The position numbers were made by a program, and so were the translations under genes. From contig CM044961.1 of assembly GCA_024516035.1 (NCBI GenBank), forward strand, positions 29,869,123 through 29,933,122: a stretch of DNA of 64,000 nucleotides, in the 5' to 3' direction. Source of the stretch: Bactericera cockerelli (taxonomy: Eukaryota > Arthropoda > Insecta > Hemiptera > Triozidae). Numbering within the stretch: the first letter of the stretch is position 1; the number at the start of each line of letters is the position of its first letter. Below the pieces are notes generated by a model. That model saw only the letters and a list, made by a program, of their open reading frames with translations. It did no database searches and was not told the DNA's origin. This document shows, one piece after another, positions 8,061 through 64,000 of this stretch.

Positions 8061-8112
8061 AACACACACTAATTATGTACATTCAAACAATCTGCCCCCC
8101 CCCCCCCCCCAG

Positions 8113-9160: not shown

Positions 9161-9300
9161 TCGAGGCGTTGCTCTGGTAATCCAGAGGTCGCGCGTTCGA
9201 AACACAGGCGGGGCACAACAAATTATCCTTCCGTTTTGGAAATTTGATTACATAATAATGTCTTGAGCTTACTGCTGGAATAATGGGACTCATTAGTCCT
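9141..9300 (+). mobile_element. tRNA-headed SINE, family B (array-founding copy)
   Basis: GTCCCGCTACCTCAGTGG head, B box GCGTTCGAAAC, then body with TTACTGCTGGAATAATGGGA. The exon-tail array ends in this copy. Confidence 0.8.
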
Positions 9301-12471: not shown

Positions 12472-12985
12472 CTGATACTTACAGAGTGGTTCAGATGCGA
12501 TAGTTGGCGTAGTCATTGATCACCTCGTGATACTTACAGAGTGGTTCAGATGCGATAGTTGGCGTAGTCGTTGATCACCTCGTGATACTTACAGAGTGGT
12601 TCAGATGCGATAGTTGGCGTAGTCGTTGATCACCTCGTGATACTTACAGAGTGGTTCAGATGCGATAGTTGGCGTAGTCGTTGATCACCTCGTGATACTT
12701 ACAGAGTGGTTCAGATGCGATAGTTGGCGTAGTCGTTGATCACCTCGTGATACTTACAGAGTGGTTCAGATGCGATAGTTGGCGTAGTCGTTGATCACCT
12801 CGTGATACTTACAGAGTGGTTCAGATGCGATAGTTGGCGTAGTCGTTGATCACCTCGTGATACTTACAGAGTGGTTCAGATGCGATAGTTGGCGTAGTCG
12901 TTGATCACCTCGTGATACTTACAGAGTGGTTCAGATGCGATAGTTGGCGTAGTCGTTGATCACCTCGTGATACTTACAGAGTGGT
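12472..12985 (-). repeat. 55-bp tandem array carrying the last FASN-like codons, stop and a GTAAGT
   Basis: Nine further copies of the end of the terminal exon follow it on the minus strand. Each unit holds GTGATCAACGACTACGCCAA, ACTATCGCATC, the TGA, then ACCACTCTGTAAGTATCACGAG. The copies are almost identical apart from single changes in the outermost ones. The GTAAGT inside each unit looks like a 5' splice site placed just after the stop. Confidence 0.95.
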
Positions 12986-13099
12986 TCAGATGCGATAGTT
13001 GGCGTAGTCGTTGATCACCTCTGCCGTAGTCTTGTGCTCCAGAAGCTGGAAGTAGGAAGATGTTTCTGACACTTTCAGTATGAGCTCGCCACTGTGGTA
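12986..13099 (-). CDS. FASN-like exon 27: TE C-terminus and stop
   Basis: Acceptor TTCTCCCCACAG, then YHSGELILKVSE, which aligns with the YHGNVMLLRAK strand of the FASN thioesterase, continuing to LLEHKTTAEVINDYANYRI and TGA at 12986-12988. The His in LLEHKT falls about where the TE catalytic His (GDHRTLL) sits. The exon starts in phase 0 and matches exon 26 (..NAFEK). The tail after the His is much shorter than in human FASN. Confidence 0.85.
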   Translation of the reverse strand, partial: YHSGELILKVSETSSYFQLLEHKTTAEVINDYANYRI

Positions 13100-28000: not shown

Positions 28001-31000
28001 GAATCTAGGCGCGGCCGGTGCTAAGGAGCTGAGGAACTGCAGCACCCCCAGACGAAAAAAAAAAAGAGAGGATTTTCTCAAGTCCTAGCTCGAACACAAT
28101 GAAAATCATCACACATTTCTAGAATAATATTAATGTATAATTATTATGATGGGCATGGTAAACAAACTCAAACTCTTTAGATACTGAAAGAGCGACTCTA
28201 TAAATATCATTTTAGTCCGGTTTATGTGGCAGCACCCCCAAAATATTTTCTCACTGGCCGCGCCTGCATGAATCTAGTATTACCTAAGGCGGGGTAGAGG
28301 AGGTGCGACAGCAGAGGCCCGAGGTAGGCCGCGCCCAGGCAGGACACGAAGAAGAGAGGCAAGGTCTCGGCCGAGTGGCCGCACCCCGGGGATCGGGTGA
28401 GCACCGGCCGGAAGGCCGGCGAGTCGGGGGGAGTGAGATGGGAGATGTGCACCAGCTCGTCCAGAGAGAGAGGGAAGATGTCTTGGAACACGTTCGGCCG
28501 AATGTAGGATTCTGTGGAGGGAGCAAGAAAGATTTCTTATTTTCTGTGGAGGGACAAGAAAGAATTCTTATTCTGTGGAGTGACAAGAAAGTCGGGATGG
28601 TAATTTATTTTTATAAATAAATTATCTGGCGTGGAGGCTACCTTGATCAAGAAGGAGGTTCCTCCAGGGTGAGGCCCTTCCATTGCACTTCGGTTGGGTT
28701 GACCCCTGCGAGTATTCCAAATGTGAATACCATGAATTATTTCATTTCTTATTAGGCATATGTGTATGTATATATTCAGTGGCGTAGCCAGGGGGGGGGG
28801 GGGGGTGGGGTTTTTGTGTACATGTAGTTCAGGACGAGCCAACTTTGAAATAAAGTTGGCTGGAGACCATGACCCCATGCTGTAGACAAGCTGGCTACAA
28901 CAACAGGTCTCTAAATTAGGAGTTTATCATCTCGTACCCTGAAGTAATGTTATGCAACAGTTCCAGGGTACTGAGATTAGAAAGAGAGGAGGATGTTTAG
29001 TGGGTATGGCACATCGTTTTCAGTGCCTAAACCTCACACTGTCCACCAGAGCCAGAGATGGTCCTGGTGTCCGTCTTGAATTGCAAGAAGATTGACCTCC
29101 TCTCTAGAAGAAGAAGAAAAAAAAAAATACCTTGTTGCTCCTTGGTGTGTACAATCACCAGAGGGGAGGTAGACTATACCTTGTTGCTCCTTGGTGTGTA
29201 CAATCACTAGAGGGGAGGTAGACTATACCTTGTTGCTCCTTGGTGTGTACAATCACTAGAGGGGAGGTAGACTATACCTTGTTGCTCCTTGGTGTGTACA
29301 ATCACTAGAGGGGAGGTAGACTATACCTTGTTGCTCCTTGGTGTGTACAATCACCAGGGGGGAGGTAGACTATACCTTGTTGCTCCTTGGTGTGTACAAT
29401 CACCAGGGGGGAGGTAGACATGGCGTTGCACTCCAGGCTGAGGGTATCCAGATGGGTGATGAGGTCGCGGGTGGACGCACACTGGACGCAGAGAGAGGGC
29501 ATGTGGGCGGCGCGTCTAACTAAAGGCTATGTCCTAACTAAAGGGCGGGGTTATTTGCCTTTGGCAATCTTTTCCACCCATGAAAAAAAAAATTATGAAA
29601 ATTTTTTTGAAAAAAAAAAATTATGAAACAAATTTTATGAAAAAAGAAAAAAAAAAAATCTTTTCCACCCAACCCTTATCAACACCAACCTCACCCAGCC
29701 TGGATTGGGTCCAACTATCATACCTTGTTGCTCCTTGGTGTGTACAATCACCAGGGGGGAGGTAGACATGGCGTTGCACTCCAGGCTGAGGGTGTCGAGA
29801 TGGGTGATGAGGTCGCGGGTGGACGCACACTGGACGCAGAGAGAGGGCATGTGGGCGGCCCGCCTGGCTTCACACAGGACCTCGGCGGAGGACTGCAGAC
29901 AGAGGAGCACGGGGAGGGAGGGGGCCAGGACTCTCAGGGCGAGGTCCAGGTTGTGGAGTCTCTTCTCGTCCTGGCAAGGGGGAAATAATGATAATAATAT
30001 TAATATCGCCTTATTTATACTGCCCCATTAAGACAATTAAAGTCCCATTATTCCAGCAGTAAGCTCAAGACATATTATTATGTGGTAAAAATCCCAATTG
30101 GGAGGATAACATGTCATGTCCCGGCTGGGTTTCGAACCCACGACCTCTGGAGTCTTTGGATTCACAGAGTGCCGCCTTTACCACTGAGCTACCGGGACAG
30201 ACTTGTTTTGTCTGTCCCGGTAGCTATAATTATGTATGTATTGTAATTATGTATGTATTATTTTATTTGTGGTGAAGCACAAGGCCTCTTCACAATTTTT
30301 CTGGGTAGCGCAGCATTACTAAAAGCCTCCTTCACATTTCGAATTATTCTATTACATTAATGTCTTTTTACTCTGGTAGGTAATGCCGCCACTGGTCGTA
30401 ACTCATACAAGTAACTACTCATTTTTCCTCACGAGGTATGAGTGGACCCCGAACATCCAAGTAGAGAGCAGAAAAATTCCTACCCCGCTGGGGATCGAAC
30501 CCAGGTCACCGTGTGTGCAATGCCTAGCGCGCTAACTCACTCTGCCACGGTGACTACTATAATGATTGTAATTATATTGTCTTATTTATACAGTCCAGCC
30601 TGGATATAAGAGAACTCAAGGAACCGTAATAATATCGTCTTAATAATAATAATAATAAGTATATCACTCTTTTTTTTAATGATATTTATTTACAGAGGAG
30701 ACTTAACAATCAGAGTCCTTGCTCCTAAATATCACTCTTTAATGGAAGATAACCACCAGGCGAGGTTAATGCTTAACGCATTTTCTACCACCTAAGCCTA
30801 AGAGTCTTATTATAATGTCGTCACAAACTTAAATTAATGAGGAACACTTCACGCACTGAGTGGGATTTGAACCAACGGATTCCTACAAGGTAGCGCGTTA
30901 ACCACTTGACTACCAGTGCATAATATTAGTAATTATATCATGTTATTTATACACTCGAACCTAGATATAAGAGAAATCAAAGGTTATTACTTCCGAGAAT

Positions 31001-34000
31001 ATCTGATATTAGCTATCGGAAGTTTTGTGTTTTTCCTTAGAGATGTAAAATGGACTTGGAAATTGTTCTCTTATATGTATACAGGTTGTTGTTGTAGACA
31101 ACAACAACAACAGCCAACAAAGTTGTCTCGTTCTGAATCACATACTTCTATGTGCAATCAAACATCGTGACAGCTTGGACTTTTTCTTCATAAGCCATTA
31201 GAACCTATGGAAATTGCAAGACAGCCTGGTTTGTTAGGATTGACTGCTTGTAGTCCTCTAACGAGACACTGGTCTTTTCCCTGTTCAACGTCCACCAGCT
31301 AGACACTCTTATATCCAGGTAACGAATATATATCGGCTTATTTATATTGGCCGACAACCCGTACACTAACCAGCATGCACCTTGTTGTGCACGCAATGGT
31401 GCATGACAACTCACCAGCTTCACAGTGAACACAGCGTCCAATTCATGCACCTTGTTGTGAACACAATGGTGCATGACAACTCACCAGCTTCACAGTGAAC
31501 ACAGCGTCCAATGCATGCACCTTGTTATGCACAACTTCGCTCCGGCTGGTGTAAAGACCTGCAAAGCTACAAGTCCAGAATAGATCCAGCAATACAAGAC
31601 CTTTGCCCGCTATGCAGGAACCAACACATGATGTGCCTCACCTCTTTGAATGTACGGCAAATCCAACAAGCCTGGACCCCACCTCCTTATGGACAGACCC
31701 AAGAGCAGCAGCGACATAGAAACTGATAGAATGAAGTTGAATAGCGTTAACAACAACACCAACAACAACAACTTACCAGCTTCACAGTGAACACAGCGTC
31801 CAACGCATGCACCTTGTTGTGCACGCAATGGTGCATGACAACTTACCAGCTTCACAGTGAACACAGCGTCCAACGCATGCACCTTGTTGTGCACGCAATG
31901 GTGCATGACAACTTACCAGCTTCACAGTGAACACAGCGTCCAATGCATGCACCTTGTTGTAACTTACCAGCTTCACAGTGAACACAGCGTCCAATGCATG
32001 CACCTTGTTGTAACTTACCAGCTTCACAGTGAACACAGCGTCCAACGCATGCACCTTGTTGTGCACGCAATGGTGCATGACAACTTACCAGCTTCACAGT
32101 GAACACAGCGTCCAATGCATGCACCTTGTTGTAACTTACCAGCTTCACAGTGAACACAGCGTCCAACGCATGCACCTTGTTGTAACTTACCAGCTTCACA
32201 GTGAACACAGCGTCCAACACATGCACCTTGTTGTGCACGCAATGGTGCATGACAACTTACCAGCTTCACAGTGAACACAGCGTCCAATGCATGCACCTTG
32301 TTGTAACTTACCAGCTTCACAGTGAACACAGCGTCCAACGCATGCACCTTGTTGTAACTTACCAGCTTCACAGTGAACACAGCGTCCAATGCATGCACTT
32401 TGTTCTGCACGTAGTGGTGCATGACAACTCATCAGCTGGTGCATGACAACTTATCAGCTGGTGCATGACAACTTATCAGCTGGTGCATGACAACTTACCA
32501 GCTTCACAGTGAACACAGCGTCCAATGCATGCACCTTGTTGTAACTTACCAGCTTCACAGTGAACACAGCGTCCAACGCATGCACCTTGTTGTAACTTAC
32601 CAGCTTCACAGTGAACACAGCGTCCAATGCATGCACTTTGTTCTGCACGTAGTGGTGCATGACAACTCATCAGCTGGTGCATGACAACTTATCAGCTGGT
32701 GCATGACAACTTATCAGCTGGTGCATGACAACTTACCAGCTTCACAGTAAACACAGCGTCCAGTGCATGCACCTTGTTGTGCACGCAATGGTGCATGGCC
32801 TGCCGAATCCCCTGCTCGGAGTTGAAGCTGCTCAGCGGCAGGAAGATAAACAGGCTGTCGCTGTAGCGGGCCAGGAGAGAGTTGATTCGCCGGTCCACAT
32901 AGTCGTTGTGGGCGGATGCTTCGAAAGCGAGAATGATGCGGCGGGCAGACCGCTTCAGCAGCCACTTGACGATGTTGAGCCACTTGTGAGACCGGACGGT
33001 GGAGTTCACTGGAAGTCGAACAGAGAGTCAAATATAGAAACCCTATTCCCAAATACTATCTTGGTTGAAAGCACAAGGACAAATGTCAATAAAAAGAGCA
33101 ATTACCTAGGTAGAGAATAAGAGGAGCAAGGAGGCTCATAAGAAGCTTACCCTACGAAGATGGAGCGGGGATGCCTCAGTTTTATATATAATTATTATTT
33201 TTATTTTACAATGAATGAGTGTGTTTAATATTAATAAAAAATTATTATTGTTCAAAAGCAAAAAAAGGAAAAAAAAATGTCTATCTATTACTAGTGTCTG
33301 GCTGGGGGACTATAAACTGGGAGTAGACCAGTAGTCTGGCTGGGGTACTATAAACAGGGAGTAGACCAGCAGTCTGGCTGGGGGACTATAAACTGGGAGT
33401 AGACCAGCAGTCTGGCTGGAGGACTATAAACAGGGAGTAGATCAGCAGTCTGGCTGGGGGACTATAAACAGAAAGTAGACCAGCAGTCTGGCTGAGGGAC
33501 TATAAACAGGGAGTAGACCAGCAGTCTGGCTGGGGGACTATAAACAGAAAGTAGACCAGCAGTCTGGCTGGGGGACTATAAACAGGGAGTATACCAGCAG
33601 TCTGGCTGGGGGACTATAAACAGGGAGTAGACCAGCAGAGTGGGTGGTGGACTATAAACAGGGAGTAGACCAGCAGTCTCGCTGGGGGACTATAAACAGG
33701 GAGTAGACCAGCAGTCTGGCTGGAAGACTATAAACAAGGAGTAGACCAGCAGTCTGGCTGGGGGACTATAAACAGGGAGTAGACCAGCAGAGTGGGTGGT
33801 GGACTATAAACAGGGAGTAGACCAGCAGTCTCGCTGGGGGACTATAAACAGGGAGTAGACCAGCAGTCTGGCTGGAAGACTATAAACAGGGAGTAGACCA
33901 GCAGTCTGGCTGGGGGACTATAAACAGAAAGTAGACCAGCAATCTGGCTGGGGGACTCTACAAAGGGAGTAGACCAGCATTGGGTTGGTTTTGGGGGCCC

Positions 34001-43000: not shown

Positions 43001-46000
43001 TGACTTACACAAAAGGTTCCATTAGAAAGTATCATGGTGCTGATTTGCTTGACTTACACAAAAGGTTGTATCATGGCGCTGATCTGCTTGACTTACACAA
43101 AAGGTTGTATCATGGCGCTGATCTGCTTGACTTACACAAAAGGTTGTATCATGGCGCTGATTTGCTTGACCTACACAAAAGGTTGTATCATGGCGCTGAT
43201 CTGCTTGACTTACACAAAAGGTTGTATCATGGCGCTGATTTGCTTGACTTACACAAAAGGTTGTATCATGGCGCTGATTGCTTGACCGTATTCTGGACGT
43301 CTACATAGCCCTCCCACACCAGCAGGGGGGTGTCTTTGGTTTTCAGACATTTCGTCCATTGAGGGGTGGTCTGGGGCCGAATGACAGAGTACTTCTGAGG
43401 CTTGCTCTGAAAAAGTAATCACGATTAACTCAGAGAAAAGATACTCGCTTGCTATAGGAAAGGTTCCGGATTCGCGCCTCGAACCGACAAAATATTTTTT
43501 TTTACCCTGCTACCCTTCCAACAGAAATAGGTGTTCTGAAGGAAGCAACCCTGTCAAGTAGGATATTTCTGTTATTTATTGAATGAGACTAAGAAAGATC
43601 AGGTTTGTCATTCATATTGTTGTATGTGTGCATGGTATTAATTAATGGGGACTTTAATAAGAGGTTGAAAGTTGGTGTGTTGGGGATGTGGAACAACAGC
43701 TTATCAGAAGATCTAGATGTAGGTATTAATAAAAGTTTCACCAGTTGTGTGTGAGGGATAACTTCCGGTGCGCTCGTATTTTATATTGACTCAGCACCTA
43801 AATGGGATGTATTTTGTCACTTTTGGCAAATCAGAGAGGAGCCATACTACGGGGTGAGCAACTTTAAGGAATTATGAGTTCTTCATTACAGTCGAACCTG
43901 GATATAAGAGAAACCTATGTATGTAAGAGAAAAAAATTCGGTCCCTTGATACATCCAGGTTTGACTATCCTAGAAATGGAGATTTCTCCGTGAATTTTTT
44001 AAAAATAAAATAAAATAAAAATTCCTCCATGGTTCTATTATTATTAAATGCTTTATTAGTTAAAAAGACATATATAATATGTACAATACAAATAATTATT
44101 ATAAAAAAATACTTCCGATTTCTAATATTAGAAATTTCTCAGAAGTAATAGAAAAATGGAAACAATAAATGGAAATAAATAGATAAATACATATGTCCTA
44201 ACAAAAAGGCGGGGTAATTGCCTATGGCAATCCCACGACACAAGGACCATACTTCATAGATGTGGCCCTTAGTGTGGGATGACGACAGCCAAAAGAAACT
44301 AGCATAAGTTCAGTTAAAAATATTAAGGGCGGAATTAATAGACGTTTTTGTAATACCTCTGTGGCGCTAAGTCACGGATTGCGTACTGTGTAAGATAGGG
44401 AAAACCTCCACTTACCAACGACTTAAGTTATTGATGTTGTCTATTAATTCCGCCCTAAGAATTATGTAAACTCTCATTGTTATGTAAATTTGAACCATTT
44501 ACTTGTCATGTATAAAATAAATAAAATAAAATAAAATCTCTTCCACCCAACCCTTGTTGGGTGGCAGAGATTTGTAGGTTCTATCTACCACCTACCTACC
44601 TTGTTCTTGATGAGTAGGAGTCCCTCTTCTTGAACTGATAGAGTACACATGTCCTAATTATGTCCTAACATACATATGTCCTAACTAAAGGGCGGGGTTA
44701 TTGCCTATGGCAATCTCTTCCACCCAACCCTTGTTGGGTGGCAGAGATTTGTAGGTTCTATCTACCACCTACCTTGTTCTTTCAAGTAGTCAGGACGTTA
44801 AAACCAAATAGAATCAATGGACATGAAAGGAGCCTAGACATTGGATCTGGGCGTCGATATAATCTTCTCACCACCGTGATTTAGGTATCAATACCTATCT
44901 CATTTAGGTATTTTATATAGGTATTTCTAGTTATAAGATTTTTTTTCTCACAAATAATTTATCTATTACTTTAGTTTTAGTTTTATATTTATACAAAAAA
45001 CATCATGTAAATAGACCTTATAATAAGGCTTTATCTTTTCAATAAATAAATAAAAAAATCACATGGACACGGAATTATTATTATTACCTTGTTCTTGATG
45101 AGTAGAAGTCCCTCTTCTTTGAACTGATAGTGGGCCACCACGTTCTGGCTCTGATCAATGACGTCACCAGGCGACACGCTCACAAGCAGGAAGGTCGCGT
45201 TCAACTGGCGAGCCGCACTCAGCGCCTCGTACGAACACAGCAGCAGATCGCATGTCGCTTTGGCACTTTGAGAGTGCACCACGTCTACCTGTGAATGGGA
45301 TAGAAATAAAATGTCTCAAATTTGAAGCCAGAACCCGTTCGCGGTGAAAAGCGGATCGAAACACTATCATTTATTTATTACTATTTTGTTAAGTTTACGG
45401 AGATATTACTCTATTTTTATAAATATTATTAGGTATTGAAAAAATAAAAAATACATCGTACATAAGATGCTTATTTAATTTTATAATTAAATATGTCAAT
45501 CACATCACCCTCTGTGCAGATGAAAAAAATGTATTGCCACTAGAGCAAGCGGAAAAAAACCGCCTGCTAGGCGCTGCTAGTGGGAACTTAGATAACAACT
45601 TTCTTCAAAATGAAATATCTAATGGCAAATTAAGTTCACGATTAAGTAAGTCAGAAATCAGGTTGATCAACCATTTGACTCAGTAACTAGAAGATTACCT
45701 GAGGTTCGGCGGATAGTTTGTTCTGGATATGCTTGACTATGTCTCCTGGAAAGCAGTTGTTGACAGTGACCATGGTAAGATGGGCAATGGGCATCCCTCT
45801 TCTTGCCAGAGAACTTATCAAATGTCCTAGCTAATGGGCGGGGTTATTGTCTAAGGTAATGCTTTCTTACCTGAGCGACGGCGGATAGTTTGTTCTGGAT
45901 ATGCTTGACTATGTCTCCTGGAAAGCAGTTGTTGACAAGATGGGTATGCTTCTTCTTGCCAGAGAAGTTATCAAATGTCCTAGCTAATGGGCGGGGTTAT

Positions 46001-49000
46001 TGTCTAAGGCAATGCTTTCTTACCTGAGCGACGGCGGATAGTTTGTTCTGGATATGCTTGACTATGTCTCCTGGAAAGCAGTTGTTGACAGTGACCATAG
46101 TTAGGTGGGCGTCCCTTTTCTTTCCGAGAAGTTATCGATGATGAGCTGGATGAGGCAGTACAGGAACTTCTTGGTGGCGATATTCTGGATCAAACAAGTT
46201 TTTTTTTTAAAGTTTTTTCTCCCCTCCTTCAAGATTTTTATCCCCCCCCGCACAAGATTTTTATCTTTTGAAGGTGGGTATACGGGGTATGCCCTCATTA
46301 TTTGTTGAAGATGTTTATTTGTAAAATTAAATACATGGAAACTGAAAAAAAATCGACATCTTTGACATCTTATGAAAAATTATGAATATGTTATTTGAGA
46401 AATGTTATTTTTTAAAGTAATAATAATGATGTTTTTCCTTTCTGGCTGGGGCTTGAACAGGGAGGAGACCAGTGTCTTGCTAGAGGACTATTAAACAGTG
46501 AACAGACTTGCCAACCCACAAGCAAGGCTAGCTTGCAGTTTCCCAAGGATTTGATGACTAACAAAAAGCACAAGTTCTCAGTAGTAGTGCCTCCGTGGGG
46601 TGAGAGTGTTTTCCATCAAAGGGGAGGTAATCTCTGACGAGAAGTGACACATTTAGGTGGTAGGTCAACAGGGTCAAGTAGGTAATTACCTTGGAAAGGG
46701 AAGTAAAGTGGGGCACAAAGTGAATGTTATTCAGTTTGGCCTCGTCTTGTATCTGGTAGTGGTTACCACTTTGAAGAAGTGGCTCAATAGTTTTTACAAA
46801 GAAGTTTTTTTAATGAATATTTCTAGGACTTTTTTATTTCGTAGCCGTGAAACAGCAGCTACCGTAGACGCTTGTGTCTGTATTTTAGTTTGACCGTCCT
46901 GTAGTATGCCTCCCTTCTGATGGCCGAGAACTGTTACAATACATTCCATTTAGGTGCTGGGTCAACAGGGTGAACCTCGCCCCTTGGTTCACTACATATT
47001 CTATTTTTTATTATTTTTTTATTTTAGCATGTCCTATTTTGTTGAATGTACCTATGTAGTTGACCAGTAAAGAGTTAAATAATAATAATAATAATAGTGA
47101 AGTAGCTACTTACTTTGGAAAGGGAAGTAAAGTGGGGCACAAAGTGAATGTTATTCAGTTTGGCCTCGTCTTGTATCTGGTAGTGGTAGCTAGAGGTCAC
47201 CACTTTGTACATGTGAACGCCGGGAGCCGAGGTTTCGCCTGTGTGGAAGTCTAGGAATACGTCGACTATGCTGCCTGTGGAGGATAGGGATGAAAAAATA
47301 AAAAAAATTGCAATTTAGAAATATTTTTTTTTAACTTTTTTTATTTATTTATTAAATTGATTAATTTTAAAATCACAGGAGATAGACTTGATCCATCCCA
47401 CTTGCATGAGACAATGTACCTAACATGCAGGTAGCATTACCTCGTTGGATCGCCAAAGAAATCCTCTGAAAGACGAAAGCCTTTGCGGCCCTATTGCCAG
47501 TGAGACGAACCAAGCCATCTCCAACAGTTTTAAAAAAGATCTTCATCCCCTTGCTCCAAGGGCCCATTGTCTCACATGCCAGGGGAACAAAGATGTAATT
47601 TGCCTCGGTGATGAAACTGTGAGAGGCATTTTTTCTCATAAATTAAAATAAATTCTAAGGAAAGAAAAAAGATGAGTGTTTCACAGGATTTTTATTTCGT
47701 AGCCATGAAACTCCAGCTACTGTAGACGTAGCTTGCCCAGCCAGTAGTATGAAGATAGGGATAAAAAAAAAAAAAATGTTGCAATTTACAAATAAAATAA
47801 ATTCTGAGGAAAAAAACGAGATGAGTGTTTCACAGTATTTTTATTTCGTAGCCATGAAACACCAGGTAGTGTAGACGTAGCTTGCCCATCCCGTAGTATG
47901 CCTCCCCTCTGATGGGCGAGAAGTGACACAATACTTTCCATTTAGGTGCTGGATCAACACGAGCACACCCGAAGTTATCTTGTTGTTCACGATTGCGCAA
48001 TTATGAATACAAAAGGCTAACAGATAATAATAATATATCGCCTCATTTATACTGCTCGATTAGTACTATTAAGCCCAATTATTCCTGCAATAAGCACAAG
48101 ACTCATTATTATGTGGTGAAAATCCCAAATGGGAAGATAATAATAATAATAATAATAATAATAGAAAATCTTATAAGGGCAAAGTTTTTTTTTTTAAGTG
48201 GGGTTTAACGTTGCTTTCAACTGCCATGGTCATATCACGACGGGGGTTTTACCCTCCATTCGCAGGAAAACTCACAAACCTGCTACTCACATTGACCTCA
48301 CCCAGCCTGAGTGGGGCCGGGAAAAGCCAGCGTCACGAGAATTAGAATTTGAATGGTCACCCATCCAAGTCTTAACCTCGCTGGATGTCGCTTAACTTCG
48401 GTGTTCTGAAGGGAACCGGTGTATTCAACATGCCATCGACGCTGGCTAGGGCAAAGTTTTACAAGTAAAACTATTAAGCCCAGAACAGATAACTTGTCAT
48501 GTTCCGGCTGGGTTTCGAATCCGCGAACTCTGGAATCTCTGGATTCACAGAGTGCCGCCTCTAGGACAGAGAGGTTAACTTACCGGGAGCGAGGTTAGCA
48601 ATGAGCTTGGGTGAGAGGGTGAGCTGTCGGATGAGCGAAGGAAACACAGGGATGCCATCCTCGTTGAGATCCAGGAAGACTTTCACCTTGAGAATGGTGT
48701 CCAGATAGACCATCAGATCTCCGTTGTACACAATCTGGGCGTGGCAGCCTGGAATAATTGGGGTTTGCTGGTTATTATTATTATTATTATTATTATAGAA
48801 AGCTTTATTAGGTAGAACAAAAAATATATACAGTAGAATACAATGAAATATAAAGAAAAACAAAAAGATTAAGCAAATATACAAGAAAAAAAAAGAGAAT
48901 GAAGTTGAAGTATGCCTTTGGCAATAACCCAGCCCTTTAGTTAGGACATATATTATGTATATATTTATTTATTTTTTCTTTATTTTTTTCTTCTATTATA

Positions 49001-52000
49001 TTGTATTTTAATTTGTAATTATTTGTGTTGTATTAATATGTCCTATTAATAAAGTGTAAATAATTAAATGAATAAAGGTTAGTTATAGTACAGAAGAGTA
49101 CAGAAGGCAGTACTCAAACACGGTTTGAGTGCTGGCTGGGGGACGTTAAACAGGGAGAAGACCAGTGTCCCGCTAGGGGACTATAAACAGAGAACAGACT
49201 AGCCAACCCTTACAAGCCAGGCTAGCTTGCAGTTTCCTAAGGGTTTAATGGCTTATAAAGAAATGTCCAAGTCCTCATGATGGTTGATTGCACATAGAAA
49301 TATGTGGATCAGGACGACCCAACTTTGAAATAAAGTTGTCTGGAGTCCATCACTCACCCCTCCAGCTATTAAAAAATAATAGTAATAATAATAATAATGC
49401 TTTTTCTTTGTGTTATTATGTCACAATTTTAGTGGGTAGCACAGAATCATAGGACTTTACCACTTTAATTTACAATATCTTGTATTTTTTTTGCCTATGA
49501 TTCTGCCACTGGTCGCTGCTTCACATCAAAGCAGCTACTCATTTTTCCTCACGAGGTATGAGTGAACCCCGAACATCCAAGTACAGAGCATAAAAAAATC
49601 CTCCCCCGCTGGGAATCGAACCCAGGTCACTATGTGTGCAATGCCTAGCGCCCTAACTCACTCTGCCACAGTGACTACTTCAGCTATTAATATCGATGAA
49701 AAGCTCAGAACCTACCCTCCTCGTAAATGTAGAACCTACCCTCCTCGTAAATGTAGAACCTACCCTCCTCGTAAATGTAGAACCTACCCTCCTCGTAAAT
49801 GTAGAACCTACCCTCCTCGTAAATGTAGAACCTACCCTCCTCGTAAATGTAGAACCTACCCTCCTCGTAAATGTAGAACCTACCCTCCTCGTAAATGTAG
49901 AACCTACCCTCCTCGTAAATGTAGAACCTACCCTCCTCGTAAATGTAGAACCTACCCTCCTCGTAAATGTAGAACCTACCCTCCTCGTAAATGTAGAACC
50001 TACCCTCCTCGTAAATGTAGAACCTACCCTCCTCGTAAAATGTAGAACCTACCCTCCTCGTAAATGTAGAACCTACCCTCCCCAGAACCTACCCTCCTCG
50101 TAAATGTAGAACCTACCCTCCTCATAAATGTAGAACTACCCTCCTCAGAACCTACCCTCCTCAGAACCTACCCTCCTCGTAAATGTAGAACCTACCCTCC
50201 TCAGAACCTACCCTCCTCGTAAATGTAGAACCTACCTTCCTCGTAAATGTAGAACCTACCCTCCTCAGAACCTACCCTCCTCAAAAACCTACCCTCCTCA
50301 GAAACTACCCTCCTCGTAAATGTAGAACCTAGCCTCCTCGTAAATGTAGAACCTACCCTCCTCGTAAATGTAGAACCTACCCTCCTCAGAACCTACCCTC
50401 CTCAGAACCTACCCTCCTCAGAACCTACCCTCCTCGTAAATGTAGTACCTATCCTCCTCGTAAATGTAGAACCTACCCTCCTCAGAACCTACCCTCCTCA
50501 GAACCTACCCTCCTCAGAACCTACCCTCCTCAGAATCTACCCTCCTCAGAACCTACCCTCCTCAGAACCTACCCTCCTCAGAACCTACCCTCCTCAGAAC
50601 CTACCCTCCTCAGAACCTACCCTCCTCAGAACCTACCCTCCTAAGACTCCTCAAAGAAAAAGCCCAAGTTCTCATGATGGAAATTTGTTAAAATTTGTTC
50701 TTCAGAACGAGCCAACATATCAACTAAAGTTGGATAGAGACCATCATTTCCCCAGCTGTAGCCCAGCTGGCTTCGACAACAACATTTCAGCTAATGTCAC
50801 CACTACCCTCCTCAGAACCTACCCTCCTCGTAAATGTACAGATGCTGCACCAGACAGAAGGGCGCGCTGAGCTCGTACTGGTGGTCCCTGAACATCTGGT
50901 AGAAGACCCCGGCGTCTATGCTTTTAGCTGCACTGGTCCAGGGCCAGGCTCAGGGAGGGGACCGAGGGGTTGTAGGTCTCGAAGTAGACCCGGCCCGTGG
51001 AGAGAGAGGCCTGCCCCGCCAGCTGCTCGAACGTGCCTGTGCCCTGCGTGATCTCCGAGCTCAGGTCGATCACGTCTGGGAAGACAGAAGTTGCGAAGTA
51101 GGTAATCAATTTAAAGACAGAACCTACCCTCCCTCGTAAATGTACAATGACTACCCCACAAAACAAGAGGACTGCATCCTCTTAGTGTGGGGTAGTCGCA
51201 TTAAATATACTCGTATGTTACCTATTATACCTATTATGTACAATTATTAATGCAAATAAATTACAAATTACAAAGATATAAATAAGCCAGCGTCGATGGC
51301 ATGTTGAATACACCGGTTCCCTTCAGAACACCGAAGTTAAGCGACATCCAGCGAGGTTAAGATTTGGATGGGTGACCATTCAAATTCTAATTCTCGTGAC
51401 GCTGGCTTTTCCCGGCCCCACTCAGGCTGGGTGAGGTCAATGTGAGTAGCAGGTTTGTGAGTTTCCTGCGAAATGGAGGGTAAAACCCCCGTCGTGATAT
51501 GACCATGGCAGTTGAAAGCGACGTTTAAACCCCACTTAAAAAAAATAAAAATAAAAAAAAAGACATAAATTATTTTGGTTAGAATTGTGCAAACAGGACT
51601 ATGCAGAAATATTTCCAAAACCGTTTTCTTACGTGTATGCAAGGCCGTATCCTGGATTTTTTTCCGGGGTGGGTTCCAAAAATTAAAGTTGTATGCTCAT
51701 GAAATAACGAAGTTTTCGCGGGTTTTTTTTCACCTTTTTTAAAAAGGTAACTGTGCCCGAAAGGCCCGAACCACTTTCGTATTAATCCGTTTTACGAGAT
51801 ATGAACTGGTTGCCTTAAGTAGCCAGTGGGCAGTTACGTAGTAAAAAAAAAGGCATCAGGTAAATGGTTTTTTTAACTTTTTTTTTTTCAACAAATGCTT
51901 GAAATATATTTATTTACATATAATCATCTTCTTCCTTTTTAATCACAAAGTTTCAGTAGGGTCCTGAGTGCGTTAGCATGTGTTGGACCCTACCGTACAA

Positions 52001-55000
52001 GTAAGGCATTTTTGTATATAAAATTCTGCAAATTTAAATGTTTTTAATTTAAATTTCTATACCTGATGAGGTCATTTCCACTAGATTGTGCAGGCTGAAC
52101 TCCTCACACACGAATATCTTGTCTTCCGACGAGGGTTTCTTCTGCTGAGCGGACAGTTTGGCGTACAGTTCCACCTGAAATTAGTAAATAAACAACACTG
52201 TAAATAAATAAATAAACCATAAACAACACTGTAAATAAACAAAGTAAATAATTAACCACCTTAAACCGTTTACAAAAAGAGCAACACTGAAAATTTGCTT
52301 TTGTTAATCACATTTTTAGACATTTCGTACATTGAGGGGTGGTCTAGGGCCGAATGACAGAGTACTTCTGTCATTCGGCTTGCTCTGGAACGGAAGTAAA
52401 CACGATTAGCTCACTGGTATAATAATAATAATAATGCTTTTTCTTTGCGTTATTATGTCACAATTTTAGTGGGTAGCACAGAATCATAGGACTTTACCAC
52501 TTTAATTTACAATATCTTGTATTTTTTTGCCTATGATTCTGCCACTGGTCGCTGCTTCACATCAAAGCAGCTACTCATTTTTGCTCACGAGGTATGAGTG
52601 AACCTCGAACATCCAAGTACAGAGCAGAAAAATACCTACACCGCTGGGGATCAAACCCAGGTCACCATGTGTGCAATGCCACTGGTATAAGATACTCGCT
52701 TGCCACGAGGAAGATCCCGGGTTCGCTCCTCGAACCGACAAAAATTTGTATTAAAATATTGGTTGCAACAGTTGTGTGTAAGGGATACGAGCGTTCCGGA
52801 GCGCTATAGCGTTAAGTAACGCGTACTTTACTTTTCCAAAATATTTACACATTAATATTATTTATACTCTGGTATAAACAGAGAATAGACTAGACAACCA
52901 TAAAAAGCCAGAGTAGAAATGCAGATCCTCAAGGGTCTAATCTTAGCTTATAAAGAAAAAGATTAAGTTCTTCTCATGATGGTTGATCGCACATCAGTAC
53001 AATAGAAATATGTTCTTCAGAACGAGCCAACATAACAACTAAAGTTGGAGAGAGACCATCACTCTTCTAGTTGTAGCTAAGCTGGCTTGCACAAAAACAT
53101 ACTCTGGTAATGCCGCCACTAGTGTTTACTCATCAAGTAAATACTCATTTTTCCTCATGAAGTATGATTGGACCCCGGACATCTAAGGAAAGAGAAGAAA
53201 AATATCCTACCCTACTGGAGATCAAACCCAGGTCACCGTACTCACTGTGTAAGCAAAACTAGTGCGCTAAATTACTCGGCCATGGTGACTACCTTATTGA
53301 GATTTAATATAAGATTCTAAATAAAGAAATGTCAAATGAAACAAAAACAAAGTCCTTCCTTTCTAATATTTAATCCTAAAATGATAATATGAAATCGTGA
53401 AATAAAACTGATTAATTCACTGATCGCTGTAAGTATGTCTAGAACGGCCACACCTTCAAAATTGCCAAAAAAATTAAAAGTCATTTGAAAATATTATATT
53501 TAAAAAAATAAATCACAAATAAAAAACCTTATCCATATTGGTGCTTGATGGCAACGAGTCCAATATATCTACTCGCTGCATTAAATCCTTTGCGACCATG
53601 AAGTACCTACTGGGTCTGAGCTGGTGGTTTAATTAAGTTTTACTTACCAGGAAGAATGACAGGGGAGGGACAATGAACCCATTCACTTGGTGGCTGAAGA
53701 GGGGGCGACACTCCTTGTTCAGAAGATCGATCTGAATCACTGGATCTTTTGGCTGAAAATGAAGCGACATACATAAGTGAAAATCTGGGGCAAGGACTCT
53801 GAGTGTTAAATATCTCTCATTACATATACATATAAATGTTCATTAAAAAAAGAGGAAATCATTATTTATATCAATTTTATCGCAATATAGTCACTGGTTC
53901 ATAGAAAATCATAATGAATATCAATTTTATCGCGAAATCATCAATGATTGTTTCAAAAATGGCAGATATTCTTCAAAATATCTTGTAGGTGAAATTAAAT
54001 GATGTTGTTTAATATTGCTAAAAGCTAGAAATATTGATAAAGTAACAAGTTCCAAAATTCATCAAGAAATTTGAAGTTAAACAACAGAAAGTAAGGAGAG
54101 GACTCGAGGTAGCAACAATGGTAGAATTGTCTACGTTCGAGTTGTCCTCATGGTTTGACACAAATAAGGAAGAGAACAATAGAACAAATACAAAACAATG
54201 ATAAGAAATACAACAAATAGAGAACAATTGACTTACAACGCAGGAAGAGAACAACAAAACAAAATACAAAACAATTAACTTACAATAAAGGAAAAAGAAC
54301 AATATAACAAATACAAAACAATTGACTTACAATGAAGGAAGAGAACAATATAACAAATACAAAACAATTGACTTACAATAGTAGAATTGTCAACATTCCA
54401 CTAGTCGGTCCTCATGGTTTCACACAATGAAGGAAGAGAACAATATAAACAAGTGCAAAACAATTAACTTACAATGAAGGAAGAGAACAATATAACAAAT
54501 GCAAAACAATTAATTTACAATGAAGGAAGAGAACAACATAACAAATGCAAAACAATTAACTTACAATGAAGGAAGAGAACAATATAACAAATGCAAAACA
54601 ATTGACTTACAATGAAGGAAGAGAACAATATAACAAATGCAAAACAATTAACTTACAATGAAGGAAGAGAACAATATAACAAATGCAAAACAATTAATTT
54701 ACAATGAAGGAAGAGAACAACATAACAAATGCAAAACAATTAACTTACAATGAAGGAAGAGAACAATATAACAAATGCAAAACAATTGACTTACAATGAA
54801 GGAAGAGAACAATATAACAAATGCAAAACAATTGACTTATAATGAAGGAAGAGAACAATATAATAAATGCAAAACAATTGACTTACAATGAAGGAAGAGA
54901 ACAATATAACAAATACAAAACAATTCACTTACAATGAAGGAAGAGAACAATATAATAAATGCAAAACAATTGACTTACAATGAAGGAAGAGAACAATATA

Positions 55001-58000
55001 ACAAATACAAAACAATTCACTTACAATGAAGGAAGAGAACAATATAACAAATGCAAAACAATTGACTTACAATGAAGGAAGAGAACAATATAACAAAATG
55101 CAAAACAATTGACTTACAATGGTGGAATTGTCCACATTCCACTAGTCCTCATGTTTCCACACAATGAAGGAAGAGAACAATATAACAAATGCAAAACAAT
55201 TGACTTACAATGGTGGAATTGTCCACATTCCAGTGGTCCTCATGGTTCCACACAATGAAGGGGGAGAGACTGGGAGTGCCTCTAGGGACCGGGAAACTCT
55301 CAGCCTCGTACAGGGCTTCTATGTTGGGCCGCACTCCGTTGATGTGGAGTCTGGAACCAATATTAGAGTCAAATTAGGGTTATTGGTGGTTAAGGCGCTA
55401 GTCTGGTATCCAGGTATAAGTATAAGAAGTAGTGCTTTATTTAGACTGTCAGCGCAAGACAGGTAGTCCCATTATGCCAACAGGTAGTGTAGGAGGGATC
55501 CGCTGGTTCGAATCCCACTCAGTCCTCATTTATTTGAATTTGTGACCACATAATAATATCACTCGGGAAGATGGTAGAATATGCTTTGACCTTTAACCTC
55601 GCCCAGAGGTTACCATCCACTAAAGAGTGTTATTATTATCGAAACAATTTGAAGATAGAAAACACTAAACTTGGCTTTTTTTGTTTTACTTAATTATTTA
55701 TTTTCAGATGGCCATTTCAATAAATTAAAATAAATAATTAAGTAAAACAGAAAAAGCCAAGTATTTTCTATCTTCAAATTATTTCGATGTTTATTTGTTT
55801 TACCAAGAGTTGTGTATGATTATAAGTTTTCTCTAAGAACTTTTAAATTTCATTGTTATTATTATATTTTAATTAAATTCTGATGGTCATTTGAAGGTAA
55901 TTCTTTATCTAGCTGGATGGACCATATACTCACTGTCCAAGAGCTGCCAGGAGGAAATTGGCGGGAGATTCCGATTGCCTTCGACAGAGAGGAATATTGA
56001 CGGAGGAAGCGCTCGTGTTTCTCTTCAGCAGAGCTTGCAATAGTCCATGGGGCGCTATCTGTAATAGGGAATGTATCTCGAATTGTGAATTTTTTAATGC
56101 ATTTTTTTGCAAGGCTGGGGGACTATAAACAGGGAGTAGACCAGCAGTCTGGCTGGGGTACATAAACATAGAGTAGACCAGCAGTCTGGCTGGGGGACTA
56201 TAAACAGGGAGTAGACCAGCAGTCTGGCTGGGGTACATAAACAGGGAGAAGACCAGCAGTCTGGCTGGGGTACATAAACAGGGAGTAGACTAGCATTGGC
56301 TTGGTTCTGGGGGCCCTTGTCAATTATTAGCCTCCTTGTAAAGACAGTGGTAGAAGTGCTAAGTCATTCCTCCAATGCCTGGCTACCATCATTCACGATA
56401 ACACCACCCTATGATATGATTGATTTTTTTGAATTTATTATTATTGATATTCTTCAATAATGTCACCTATTATCTACAAAATAATATGTATTCAATATTA
56501 TCTACCTATGCATATATTTTTTCTTTTTTAAAAAATGAAGAAAACAGGAAAAAAGGCATAATAATAGTAGTAGTTATTATAACTTTGTGAAAAATGAAAT
56601 TGTGAGAAATTGTGAAAAAATTAAAAATTAAAAAAAAAATAACTTCCGAGAAATTTCTAATACTAGAAATCGGAAGTATCTACAATATCTACATAATACT
56701 CCGTGGCGTAACGGTTGTGACTACTGCCCGTAGTCCACAGATCCTGAGTTCGATCCCCGGTCGGAGCAGACTTTTCGCACAGAAAATTCTGTTCCCTCCG
56801 AACACGTGAGGCTGGTTATTCCGGCCCTACCCAGTCTGGGTGAGGTTCATGTGGGTAGCTGGTACGATTCCCAGCGAATGGAGGGTAAAACCCCCGTCCT
56901 AATCCAGGACGTTAATTAAGTAGAATCGTTGACGTTAGGAAGGGCATCCAGCCGTAAAAATGTGCCAAAACCAACCAACCTCAACCATGAGGTTGAACAA
57001 CGTCGACTCTGCTTAATAATCTAGTCGACAGAGTAAAAGAAGAAGAAGAATACTCGTACCTAGAATACAAGAAGAATACCAAAAAGCTAAAATACACAAA
57101 AGAAAGAATACAAACAGAAGATAATGAAAGAGAGAGAGAGAGAGAAAAAGATATAGTATGTATGAAACCTAGTTCTATTCTCAATACAAGATCTTCGTTA
57201 TGGAAGATCTTAGTGAGAATAGAATAGACTTTTGATGTATGAATTACCATACCCATACATTTTTTTTTTTTTTTTTTTTCATTTAATAATTCTGACTAAA
57301 TATAATTGTCTGTTATTATATTAGCATTAAGGAAAAATTTTACAAACCTGAAAAAATAAATAAAGTCAAAATTATAAATTACCTCTATGACTAGCGCGTT
57401 CTCAGGGATGTGAGCGCAGGGCCTCCGTAAAGAGGACGGGATTCAAGAAGTTGTTGACGTGATACTCTGCGGAACTGGTCTGAGCGAGCGGAGAGTCCCA
57501 TTCGGACTCGGGGATGGAAGAGGATATCCATTTTGAGGACCTCTTCTTGGGGCTCTTGACTTCCTGGAGAACCGAAGAGGTAATATTTGAGGGAAACCAA
57601 CTTTAGTACTTTAGTTTTTTGAACTCGTTCAGCACCCAGCAGAGATTAGGGTTTTAATTTTTACCTGTAACTAGTATAATTATTATTTATTGATTTCAGA
57701 ACTTCATTATTTATTTATTTATTGCAAACTCTATTTGTAAAATTAATTTTATACAAATAAAAATTCTATTCTATTATATTCTATATTTGAGGGAAAAACT
57801 AAAATCATTGTAATTTCTAATTGGTTTACGAGTAAGTTATTGGTGAAGTTTAAACGGTTTTACAGAGAAAACACAATGTTTTCGAACTTCTTACCTACAA
57901 ATTTTGGTCTCTGACGAATATTCACAAAAACAACGGATTGGATTTGGCGCGCCGGCCTTACAACATTTACAACTAGGCACCTGGATTTAAAAACTATGCA

Positions 58001-61000
58001 TCAAGCTGGAAAAATCCAAGATGTAGCTTATGAAATAATGAATTATAATTTGGACATAGTAGCTCTATAAGAAATCAGATGGCATGGTCAAGGTATGGTA
58101 CAATCGTAATGTCACAACTACTCAAACTCTCTTTACCAAATATGTGTTTGAGACCTGGTTGCAGGGTTTCAGATGAATCACCATACGATTAACACTGCGA
58201 CCTAGTAAGATCTATTGTGACAAAAAAATATATAAAATATATCTGCTTAACTTGGGGGACTTCAACCACCAACCTCCAATTACGAGTCAATCGCCTTGTC
58301 GATCTAGCGACTGAGGTCTGTAGATAAAGAGACAACCTGCTGAATTCTACTGTGGATTTCACAAATCAAGGGTTTATTTTGTTGTGGTTGTTGTTGGTAT
58401 TTTTTTTATTATTTTATTTGATAATCAAGCTACTGAGGTCGGTTGATAAAGAGACAACCTGCTGAATTCTACAGTGGAATTTACAAATCAAGGGTTTATT
58501 TTGTTGTGATTTTTTGTTGGTATTTTTTTTTTTTTTTTTGATAGTCAAGCTACAGAGGTCGGTTGTCCGAAAACACATACATACCTTGTTGAATATTTTC
58601 AGCACGTTGGGTGCCAGAGGCTTCACCTGGCGTGAGTGGTAGGCTATGTAGGAGGACGGGACCACCCTGTGGAACACCTTCCTCGCCTTCAGGATCTCCA
58701 GGTAGGGTTTTATTTATTTAACATTTTAATTGTTTGTAATACTAATGTATGTTAACTAATGTATGTTAATGGTTAATTTGTAATACTAATGTATGTTAAT
58801 GTAACTAATACTAATGTATGTTAAGGGTTCTAATGTATGTTAATGGTTTAATTTGTAATACTAATGTTATGTTAATGTAACTAATACTAATGTATATTAA
58901 GGGTTCTAATGTATGTTAATGTAACTAATACTAATGTATGTTAAGGGTTCTAATGTATGTTAATGTAACTAATACTAATGTATGTTAAGGGTTCTAATGT
59001 ATGTTAATGTAACTAATACTAATGTATGTTAAGGGTTCTAATGTATGTTAATGGTTAATTTGTAATACTAATGTATGTTAACTAATGTATGTTAATGTAA
59101 CTAATACTAATGTATGTTAAGGGTTCTAATGTATGTTAATGTAACTAATACTAATGTATGTTAAGGGTTCTAATGTATGTTAATGTAACTAATACTAATG
59201 TATGTTAAGGGTTCTAATGTATGTTAATGTAACTAATACTAATGTATGTTAAGGGTTCTAATGTATTGTTAATGTAACTAATACTAATGTATGTTAAGGG
59301 TTCTAATGTATGTTAATGTAACTAATACTAATGTATGTTAAGGGTTCTAATGTATGTTAATGTAACTAATACTAATGTATGTTAAGGGTTCTACCTGTTC
59401 TACCTATACATACCTTGTTGAATATTTTCAGCACGTTGGGTGCCAGAGGCTTGACCTGGCGGGAGTGGTAGGCTATGTAGGACGAGGGGACCACCCTGTG
59501 GAACACCTTCCTCGCCTTCAGGATCTCCAGGTAGGGTTCTACCTGGTTCTACCTATACATAACTTCTTGATCTCCCGGTAGGGTTCTACCTGTTCTACCT
59601 ATACATACCTTCTTGATCTCCCGGTAGGGTTCTACCTGTTCTACCTATACATACCTTCTTGATCTCCCGGTAGGGTTCTACCTGTTCTACCTATACATAC
59701 CTTCTTGATCTCCCGGTAGGGTTCTACCTGTTCTACCTATACATACCTTCTTGATCTCCCGGTAGGGTTCTACCTGTTCTAAATATACATACCTTCTTGA
59801 TCTCCCGGTAGGGTTCTACCTGTTCTACCTATACATACCTTCTTGATCTCCCGGTAGGGTTCTACCTGTTCTACCTATACATACCTTCTTGATCTCCCGG
59901 TAGGGTTCTACCTGTTCTACCTATACATACCTTCTTGAATATTTTCAGCACGTTGGGTGCCAGAGGCTTCACCTGGCGGGAGTGGTAGGCTATGTAGGAG
60001 GAGGGGACCACCCTGTGGAACACCTTCCTCGCCTTCAGGACCTCCAGGTAGGGTTCAACGTCCTCGCGGGCGCCCGATATGGTGGTGTTGTCCTCCGAGT
60101 TGTGACACGCGATGTCCACGGCGGGCGGCAGATCGGCGAGGTCCTTGTAGTTCAGCCCTGGGGGGAGGGGAGGGAGGGGCGGGGGGGGGCATTAGGGGGA
60201 CATGAGAATAAAAAACTTGGAAAAAGAGAATGCCGAAGGAATTATTATCACCACCCTTGATTTTTTTTTTTTTTTTTTTTTGAAGGCAGGAAAAAATCTT
60301 TTAAAGACACCCAGGTCATCCTGACTTGGGGTGTGGGATTTCCACCCAATTAAATGCCACCTTCTCAAAGAGCTAACCGCACCTGGAACCGAAAGATATC
60401 ATTACTTCAAGTGCGGCGCTGTAGGACCCTACTGGCTTTGTTTACTATTATTATGCCTTTTCAACCGACATCGGTAATTCAGTAGCTTGATTGATAAGGT
60501 AGCGGACTTGTAACCTGGAGGTCGTTGATTTGAGTTCTAATTAAAGCAGATATTTGAATTATAATTGTATTTGAATTTGAGTAATTTTGAAATCACCATT
60601 GTGGCTCATACAAAATTTGTAACTTGTATTAATATTTAATTAAGTTAAATTTAATAACAAATTTAATCTGTTCAATTAAAAAAATTGACCTTTCCTAATT
60701 AAGTGGGGTTTTTATTTTGTTTAACCCGGGATTTAGTACGGTTCGGTTTTGTAACGTATCCAGTACAGGGTAACGTATACGGTTGTGAGAGAAATCCCTC
60801 AAAACCGTACTAATTCCCGGTTTAATTTTATCGGGGATTTATTCTTCTAGCACTTATGGGTCCATAAAGGGACATTCGTTCGAAATCAGGGACTTCCCTA
60901 CGGACCCATACCGGGTTTCAGTTTCTGCCCCTTGGACACGACCCCTGCATACCCCCCCAACGGGGCCTCTTCGTAAAGAACCGAAGGGGGCCACCCCTTT

Positions 61001-62512: not shown

Positions 62513-64000
62513 GGGGGGAAAGGGGGATAAATCGGGGAAATTTAAAGGTTTGGGGGGTGGAAAATTTTCAAAACCCCACTTCCAGCCACTACAAGTTATC
62601 TTCTTTTTGGGATTTTTCACCACTTGAATACGTTTTGGGGGTTACTGCTAAATAAAAGGACTCATTAGAAAAAGGGGAGTGTGGTCGTGTTTCCTACCCC
62701 CCCTATATGCCCCCCTCCGATGGCGAAAAAGGTCCTTTTCCCCCATTAGGGCGGGTCAACACAGCGCCCCAAGGTTCCTTTACAAACTTTGTAACCAAAA
62801 AAATTTTTAAAGGGTTTTTACTGGGAAAAACCCTTTGTAAATGTTATTGTTTTAAAAATAAATTAAAAAAAAAAAAACACAATTTTTTTGTAAACCGGGT
62901 CGAACCCGGGGACCTTCCGCGGGCTAGCGATGTTTAAACCAAAGAGCTAATCGCGCGCCAGGTTATTATTTTTAAGTAAATGACCTGAAGGGTTTTCGGG
63001 GGGGGGCAGCCTGTTATCCGTTGAGAAGAACCGTTCACATTTCCTTAAAGGCCGGTTCACAAGGGGCAAAAGTCTTTTTTGAACGGCTTTTTCTGGGGCT
63101 GGGAAAAATTGATGGGGGCATTGAAAAATTTTTTTTTTTTTTAGTTTTTTTTCAAAAGGGGGTTTAAATTCGGGAAGAAAGTGGCAGAGAACCCAAAGGC
63201 ATTAACTTCGCCCCGGTTTTACAATACACTGAAAATTTAAATTTAAATATTTTTTTTCTTCAAAATTTTTTTTGAAATATTTTTTTTTTTTTTATTTTTG
63301 TTAATAATTTTTGTTTTTGATTGTTTAAAAAAAAGGTTAAAAATAAAATAAAAATAAGAAAATGGGGGGTTTTAATATAAATTTATGACCTTTTTACAAT
63401 TCATAATATCCCCCGCCATAGCTTGAAAAGCTGACTTGAATAGGGAGGTGGGTGTTCATCCGAATAAAGGGGGCATAAATTTTTGAAGCGGTTTTGAGAT
63501 TGTGATTCCACACGAATAAACAAAAATTAAAATTTACTTTATTTAAAATTAAATTTGTTTTATAGAAAAGTTCCATCTTTTAAAATCCTTCAAAAAAAAA
63601 TTTGACTCTTTCTGCCAAATATTTTTTTTGGCCTCCCCCTTGGGGAACCGTAAGGCCGCTTGTTGGGCCCATGCCTTTGAAACCAAAAAAATAGTTTGGC
63701 TCGGGGGCCCCGATGCCTTAATAAAGATCACCTTTTTGGGTTGACAAAATCTTTAAATTCCGCGAAGGCCAAACTTTTTAAACGGCAAACCCCTAAAAGA
63801 CGGGGATAGACAACGGTTTTTTCCTTTTTTCTTCCTAGGCATTTTCTGGGCTAAACTCTTTCCAAATTTAACACAACTACGTCAGACCATTTAAAATTAA
63901 AATTTTGACATTCCTAACTTTGTTTTTGGTACTGATTATTAAACCTACAAAACTTTTTTTTAATGGAGGCTAGTTTTTCCCTTATATTTTTTGTTTTGTT

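Follow-up and report, generated by a model that had tools for sequence, protein, structure and literature searches.

The window analysed here, a stretch of 64,000 nucleotides of the psyllid Bactericera cockerelli (C7:29869123-29933122), belongs to an assembly of 565 Mb in 1032 contigs. Spliced alignment to the fatty acid synthase (FASN) of Cacopsylla melanoneura (P0001) showed that the window holds, on the minus strand, the 3' part of a psyllid FASN gene, whose AT-domain exon shows a 76% match to the Cacopsylla melanoneura protein. The model of this gene copy (copy B) comprises 26 exons on the minus strand from 60157 to 12989. Exons 1-7 occupy 60157-59931, 57563-57383, 56058-55934, 55350-55209, 53752-53648, 52174-52063, and 51075-50823; exons 8-14 occupy 48748-48584, 47274-47114, 46184-46024, 45288-45088, 43406-~43254, 42508-42332, and 41573-41498. 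Exons 15-21 follow at 40680-40504, 37940-37743, 37068-36870, 34880-34700, 34159-34050, 33008-32737, and 29970-29724, and exons 22-26 at 28511-28284, 27420-27265, 25170-25034, 24874-24644, and 13099-12989. Two rows of the alignment were left out of the model: row 1 (60969-60906) overlaps the complete gene's exon 10 in degraded form, and row 14 is a repeat copy within the array of exon 12. On the plus strand, an open frame at 1314-3053 encodes the reverse transcriptase of a retroelement (PF00078, 1.6e-32).

The complete gene (copy A) lies about 90 kb from the window copy, at C7:29717916-29789533, and consists of 36 exons without a frame break, its frame being open across all of them despite the repeats described below. 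Window exon k corresponds to exon k+10 of copy A. For a third copy (copy C), exons 8-36 were modelled at C7:37648282-37704226 with one frame break, about which the 16 in-frame stops counted begin; exons 2-7 were not found within the stretch examined. All window exons have matching exons in copies A and C, the exon positions are identical in the three copies over exons 11-36, and the exonic identity among them is 97.4-97.9% (exons 11-35). Two of the three copies reside within about 0.25 Mb of each other. Judging from the sequences, the three may represent either recent paralogs or uncollapsed haplotypes, the latter being described as fairly common in assemblies of Diaphorina citri (PMC9933525).

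The exons of the window copy contain four one-base frame breaks, three found by alignment and one by eye against the exon's own repeat copy. The end of the window (60660-64000) shows 68-78% gapped identity to copy A and carries 56 homopolymer runs of at least four bases per kb, with 75 in locus L025, 42 in locus L026, and 18 in the window from 30 to 60 kb. Both loci and the window from 60.66 to 64.0 kb look like sequence of raw-read quality. The four frame breaks and the missing N-terminal exons had suggested pseudogene decay of the window copy. We dropped this reading because exons 1, 4, 6, 9, and 10 are present in degraded form upstream of the gene model, in stretches that resemble raw reads.

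Copies of exon ends in the FASN introns

Many introns of the window gene contain repeats composed of the tail of an exon, its GT donor, and a few intron bases, which we call echoes. The copies run from exon to intron, since homology defines the FASN exons to which these ends belong. With at least 4 nt matched on each side of the junction, local copies were found at 11 of the 25 internal donors in the window, namely those of exons 1, 4, 7, 9, 10, 12, 13, 15, 18, 20, and 21. Other signs revealed further echoed ends at exons 11 and 17, at the terminal coding exon, and at exon 9 of the complete gene. The initial annotation had counted 14 exon ends, in addition to the terminal coding exon, followed by copies of their tails and donors. 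This count stands, with its "exon 1" (~62.34 kb) corresponding to exon 9 of copy A in the apparently raw-read-quality part. The same tests at acceptors gave two of 26 in the window (exons 18 and 22), one by copies and the other by a Tandem Repeats Finder (TRF) array across the acceptor. Acceptor-side duplications are thus rare, as had been noted, although the case reported at window exon 12 was not found. Copy A shows echoes at 14/35 donors and at 3/35 acceptors (exons 3, 28, and 32; p 0.0044).

The echoes, all on the minus strand, differ from exon to exon. The array of exon 9 of the complete gene (62020-62190), recognized by eye in sequence of apparently raw-read quality, has a ragged unit of ~37 bp. 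Window exon 1 is followed by 9.2 copies of a 46-bp unit made of 8 nt of exon and 38 nt of intron (59515-59938), and exon 4 by 21.7 copies of another 46-bp unit (54207-55212), starting with a copy spaced by 91 bp that contains 53 exon nt. The array of exon 7 (49704-50840) has 16/24-bp units and 44 downstream copies spanning the junction, with its main part about 170 bp past the donor. Exon 9 has a single echo of 91 bp (46673-46763; 96% across the 74 bp of the query), exon 10 a series with a 153-bp period of exon tail, donor, and intron (45695-46136), and exon 11 a single 46-bp echo with 43 exon nt and only 3 intron nt (44187-44232). At exon 12, about 33 exon nt and GTAAGT form a 39-bp unit present 8.1 times (42963-43286). 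The echo of exon 13 is single and decayed, with 83% identity at 507 bp downstream (approximately 41817-41913).

The largest array belongs to exon 15, which ends in ttatgcttataccacg followed by the donor GTGAGT and then by many units of the form TTATGCTTATACCACGGTGAGT. Its first block (40223-40519) has a 22-bp unit of 16 exon nt and GTGAGT, and its second block (37994-39543) includes longer copies of exon 15. Among the 59 copies scored in both blocks, the GT is intact in 36 and lost in 23. The units of the 21/22-bp arrays of exon 17 (36087-36866) begin at the donor or a few nt after it. Exon 18 is followed by 3.7 copies of 33 bp (34586-34708), not found in copies A and C, and exon 20 by mixed units of 22, 51, and 70 bp (31373-32797). 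The array of exon 21, with six copies of 49 bp (29127-29517), is parted from its exon by other sequence, about 200 bp of T-rich sequence at 29520-29720, apparently an insertion that postdates the array. At the terminal coding exon, ten copies of a 55-bp unit (12473-13021), each including the stop codon and a CTCT/GTAAGTATC that resembles a donor, are likewise not found in copies A and C. The two acceptor-side cases are an array of 2.8 copies of 29 bp at exon 22 (28509-28591) and an echo with a 109-bp unit at exon 18 (34803-35228).

Unit sizes in the window range from 16 to 153 bp, and both unit size and copy number differ between exons. The units are unrelated, in agreement with the proposal that each array arose independently. 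Between copies A, B, and C, arrays with matching units differ in copy number and some are missing from one copy, which agrees with the suggested ongoing process. Exact repeat-unit scans over the genome-contig and viral-contig collections gave no match.

Two other kinds of repeat were observed in the window. An open frame on the plus strand (8073-9177) ends in KRCLDYFCCCGCLFPRI, and its last part, including the stop codon, recurs in 74-bp arrays (8248-8471 and 8715-9147). The frame has no Pfam match at E 0.1 and is possibly the terminal exon of another gene, with an echo of the type seen at the FASN terminal exon. A dispersed 38-bp minisatellite family (GTCTGGCTGGGGGACTATAAACAGGGAGTAGACCAGCA) occurs on both strands at 33296-33979, 42218-42294, and 56113-56295, and also in another gene (L041:8293-8419), and echoes no exon. 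We rejected a transposable-element origin of the echoes: they have no sequence in common, and the dispersed family is separate from them.

We compared the TRF loci with a score of at least 100, leaving out the terminal-exon array, with 20,000 random placements that allowed at most 60 nt of exon overlap. In the window gene, 8 of 29 loci touch a donor, where 1.25 are expected and the maximum over all placements was 7, and there are 2 contacts with acceptors (1.27 expected). Recomputed TRF lists gave 9 donor (1.30 expected) and 4 acceptor contacts (1.30, p 0.038) among 31 loci in copy A, 8 (1.20) and 1 (1.20) among 27 in copy B, and 8 (0.97) and 2 (0.94) among 23 in copy C. When only strict minisatellites (period 10-100, at least three copies) are counted, donors are contacted by 8/18 in copy A, 7/23 in copy B, and 5/19 in copy C, with 0.74-1.02 expected (1.02 for B), and acceptors by 1, 0, and 1, respectively. 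These are not three independent tests, since the copies are related. The echo pattern is true and strongly non-random, and the donor surplus is real in FASN, the gene for which it is demonstrated.

Dynein genes and the age of the arrays

The dynein heavy-chain genes served as a second family. A Pfam search with AAA_6 gave 64 matches to exons, spread over about 15 dynein heavy-chain loci, and one dynein exon matches Diaphorina citri at 94%. Exon models for 15 stretches from 13 loci were based on the D. citri protein P0007; L031-L034 and L039, whose exons are those of L040 or L038 or of a second copy, and L049, which overlaps L030, were left out of the tally. Echoes were found at 4/46 donors, including that of the L029 exon 37-209, which was absent from the first exon modelling, and at 4/43 acceptors, including the doubtful case of L035r, where a 258-bp segmental array covers a short exon that is itself uncertain. 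The donor share is significantly lower than the 14/35 of FASN copy A (p 0.001). L029 carries 22-bp donor arrays; those of L029 and L038, the latter at a GC donor, may share an origin, as the two loci lie 0.26 Mb apart. The acceptor arrays include 19 copies of 34 bp (L040) and 6.6 copies of 49 bp (L043). A placement test on eight stretches (28 exons, 11 arrays) gave 3 acceptor contacts (0.92 expected, p 0.052) and 3 donor contacts (0.92 expected, p 0.054), one of the latter being the L041 array at +8, which belongs to the dispersed 38-bp family and is no echo. One dynein heavy-chain locus is present twice on C4, at 19.857 Mb and 20.504 Mb, 0.65 Mb apart, with equal scores of the AAA_6 exons but acceptor arrays of 19 and 24 copies. 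Boundary arrays are therefore not limited to FASN, though the donor preference is seen only there.

The three FASN copies also allow old and young arrays to be distinguished over exons 11-36 (copy A numbering). The comparison by script gave 54 shared rows, which we collapsed by hand to 17 arrays, and 21 arrays private to one copy. Ten of the shared arrays are donor-derived (exons 11, 14, 17, 20, 22, 25, 27, 30, 31, and 33, that of exon 27 contacting the donor only in copy B), two are acceptor-derived, and five are interior. Among the private arrays, two touch exon 3' ends (exon 28 and the terminal exon of copy B), one lies near an acceptor, and one, in intron 19 of copy A, carries copies of the exon 19 end, so that it too counts as donor-derived; a copy C array in intron 23 has a weak 24-base match inside exon 23. 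The donor-derived share is thus 10/17 for shared and 3/21 for private arrays (p 0.006), or 4/22 for the latter (p 0.017) when the exon-9 array of copy B, outside the compared span, is counted. Survival at boundaries is favoured by this difference because old arrays are more often donor arrays than young ones. The short private arrays (period of at most 100, at least three copies), however, are themselves rich in donors, with 2/8 at exon 3' ends (p 0.044), or 3/9 with the exon-9 array of copy B (p 0.005), where 0.043 per array is expected, which points to births at donors. Within this short class, the donor share is 9/11 for shared arrays against 2/8 (p 0.024) or 3/9 (p 0.065) for private ones. 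The comparison is mixed overall and leans to longer survival at donors; birth at donors and longer survival may act together, the numbers being small.

Origin of the boundary arrays

We favour, with a probability of roughly 0.6, the reading that the echoes are boundary minisatellites of the type called "mirages" in lancelets, in which duplications of the junction expand, splicing still relies on the first donor, and selection anchors one of the copies. An array would begin with a tandem duplication or slippage across the 3' end of an exon and the first bases of the intron. The unit would then expand and contract, presumably by slippage or unequal exchange, a turnover visible in the structure of the arrays and their differences in copy number. 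The upstream donor would stay in use, so that the copies would be intronic and near-neutral. As expected for unused sites, the GT is not specially kept in the largest array. Boundary arrays would outlast those inside introns, and hence accumulate, because selection retains the copy attached to the exon, which in turn keeps the neighbouring copies homologous, a step that the shared and private arrays partly support. Such anchoring should act at acceptors too, yet FASN has few acceptor echoes, which counts against this explanation. Past the branch point, the first AG is chosen, which could explain why FASN acceptor echoes are few. This account cannot be general, because dynein genes carry acceptor arrays. 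In seven arrays, identity showed no clear polarity outward from the exon, exons 17 (p 0.03) and 4 (p 0.05) each giving a weak trend. We rejected outward decay from a master copy for this lack of polarity.

A share of donor-biased births alongside the anchored minisatellites is compatible with these data. As the whole explanation, a mutational hotspot for tandem duplication at splice donors, whether through R-loops, pausing of the polymerase, template switching, or the change in GC where exons end, seems to us a possible but doubtful alternative. Donor contacts far exceed those of the intron interior, exons and introns differ in GC (0.56 vs 0.37-0.38), and one edge of many units, judged by eye, falls no more than ~10 nt from the donor. 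A hotspot would also fit the arrays unique to copy B, located at the 3' ends of exons 28, 36, and probably 9, and the private array of copy A that repeats the end of exon 19. However, 18 of the 21 private arrays are not donor-derived, and the dynein genes, with their long acceptor arrays, do not favour donors over acceptors, which speaks against the general donor hotspot that had been put forward. We consider unlikely the more specific idea that the psyllid 5' splice site is a preferred germline breakpoint of tandem duplication coupled to transcription or splicing, by which actively spliced genes would gather arrays of spare donors, strongly in some genes (FASN) and weakly in others (dyneins).

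Simple tolerance, by which duplications arise uniformly and those leaving the coding sequence intact survive, had been offered as a possible cause and appears very unlikely on its own. It would account for the echoes sitting downstream of the copy that the gene model takes as the exon and for the lack of any TRF locus with a score of at least 50 wholly within an exon of the compared span (loci counted: 33 in copy A, 38 in B, and 29 in C). Yet it gives no excess over the intron interior, the placement control that allowed the limited exon overlap fell far below the observed donor contacts (1.25 vs 8), and acceptors are not depleted in the window or in copy A (4 vs 1.30 in the latter). Tolerance can only be a part of the explanation. 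Selection of the echoes themselves, as arrays of U1-binding sites acting as splicing enhancers, as spare donors, or as guards against premature polyadenylation, is highly improbable. GTRAG is kept in 16/19 copies at exon 4, 9/9 at the terminal exon, and 8/8 at exon 20, but the well-preserved arrays at exons 20 and 26 are uniform in all their parts, and particular arrays are missing from some gene copies. Selection keeping the donors in the arrays was rejected, as the columns of the largest array, with its many lost GTs, vary no less at the donor than elsewhere in the unit. An artefact of the assembly or the gene model could draw on the frame breaks and the poor end of the window; we give it hardly any credence, since copy C and copy A, whose frame is intact, have echoes with related units, and other genes have boundary arrays as well.

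Relation to known boundary minisatellites

The bias had been regarded as undescribed, but its kind is known. "Mirages" are reported in lancelets (Branchiostoma) as minisatellite-like duplications of exon/intron boundaries in the Adh, globin, TnC, and PGBD5 genes (PMC3087553; PMC3902484), including the globins BflGb6/BflGb9 (PMC3087553) and PGBD5 and TnC (PMC3902484). The founding description, of Adh3 (Canestro et al., 2002), is known to us through citing papers, and somatic instability is reported for that gene. According to these accounts, mirages have units of 10 to about 160 bp and an unstable copy number, occur at both 5' and 3' boundaries, and leave splicing undisturbed. The FASN echoes resemble them in units that span the boundary (11/25 internal window donors), in minisatellite size, in copy number and presence varying among three copies, be they alleles or paralogs, and in affecting both types of boundary, as the acceptors of copy A and the dynein acceptor arrays illustrate. 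Unlike the lancelet genes, for which one or few boundaries per gene are reported, about 40% of the donors of one gene are affected here. The host is an insect, and the echoes are known from genomic sequence alone, whereas splicing is reported for lancelets.

In human segmentally duplicated genes, internal tandem repeats at exon-intron boundaries are described (PMC2812944), likewise as minisatellites of ~30 bp that vary between paralogs; those reportedly alter exons or create introns, whereas the repeats here seem intronic, with constant exon positions. Intron gain through tandem duplication of AGGT or boundary segments (PMC4974935) is described as starting from the same event, a duplication across the exon/intron boundary, but no new intron or exon made from the duplicates is evident here, the exon positions of exons 11-36 being the same in copies A, B, and C. 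Other accounts of minisatellites or repeats in introns (PMC12783039; PMC3045353; PMC4039745) do not state an anatomy of exon end and donor in their accessible text. A literature search of titles and abstract openings of papers outside subscription returned no insect case of boundary minisatellites. What appears new here is their occurrence in an insect and their unusual concentration in one gene, the kind itself having been described in lancelets.

Our results suggest that boundary minisatellites also occur in an insect, where they can affect 40% of a single gene's donors; within the literature searched, they are otherwise described only in lancelets and, in another form, in duplicated human genes. 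For annotation, they are a warning, as the arrays present gene predictors with many equally good donors and acceptors. The many independent arrays and the three near-identical gene copies provide a system for separating birth from survival at donors, which also suits tests of the use of spare donors and of intron gain from duplicates. If the donor were indeed the breakpoint, the arrays would record RNA processing in the DNA as a mutational signature.
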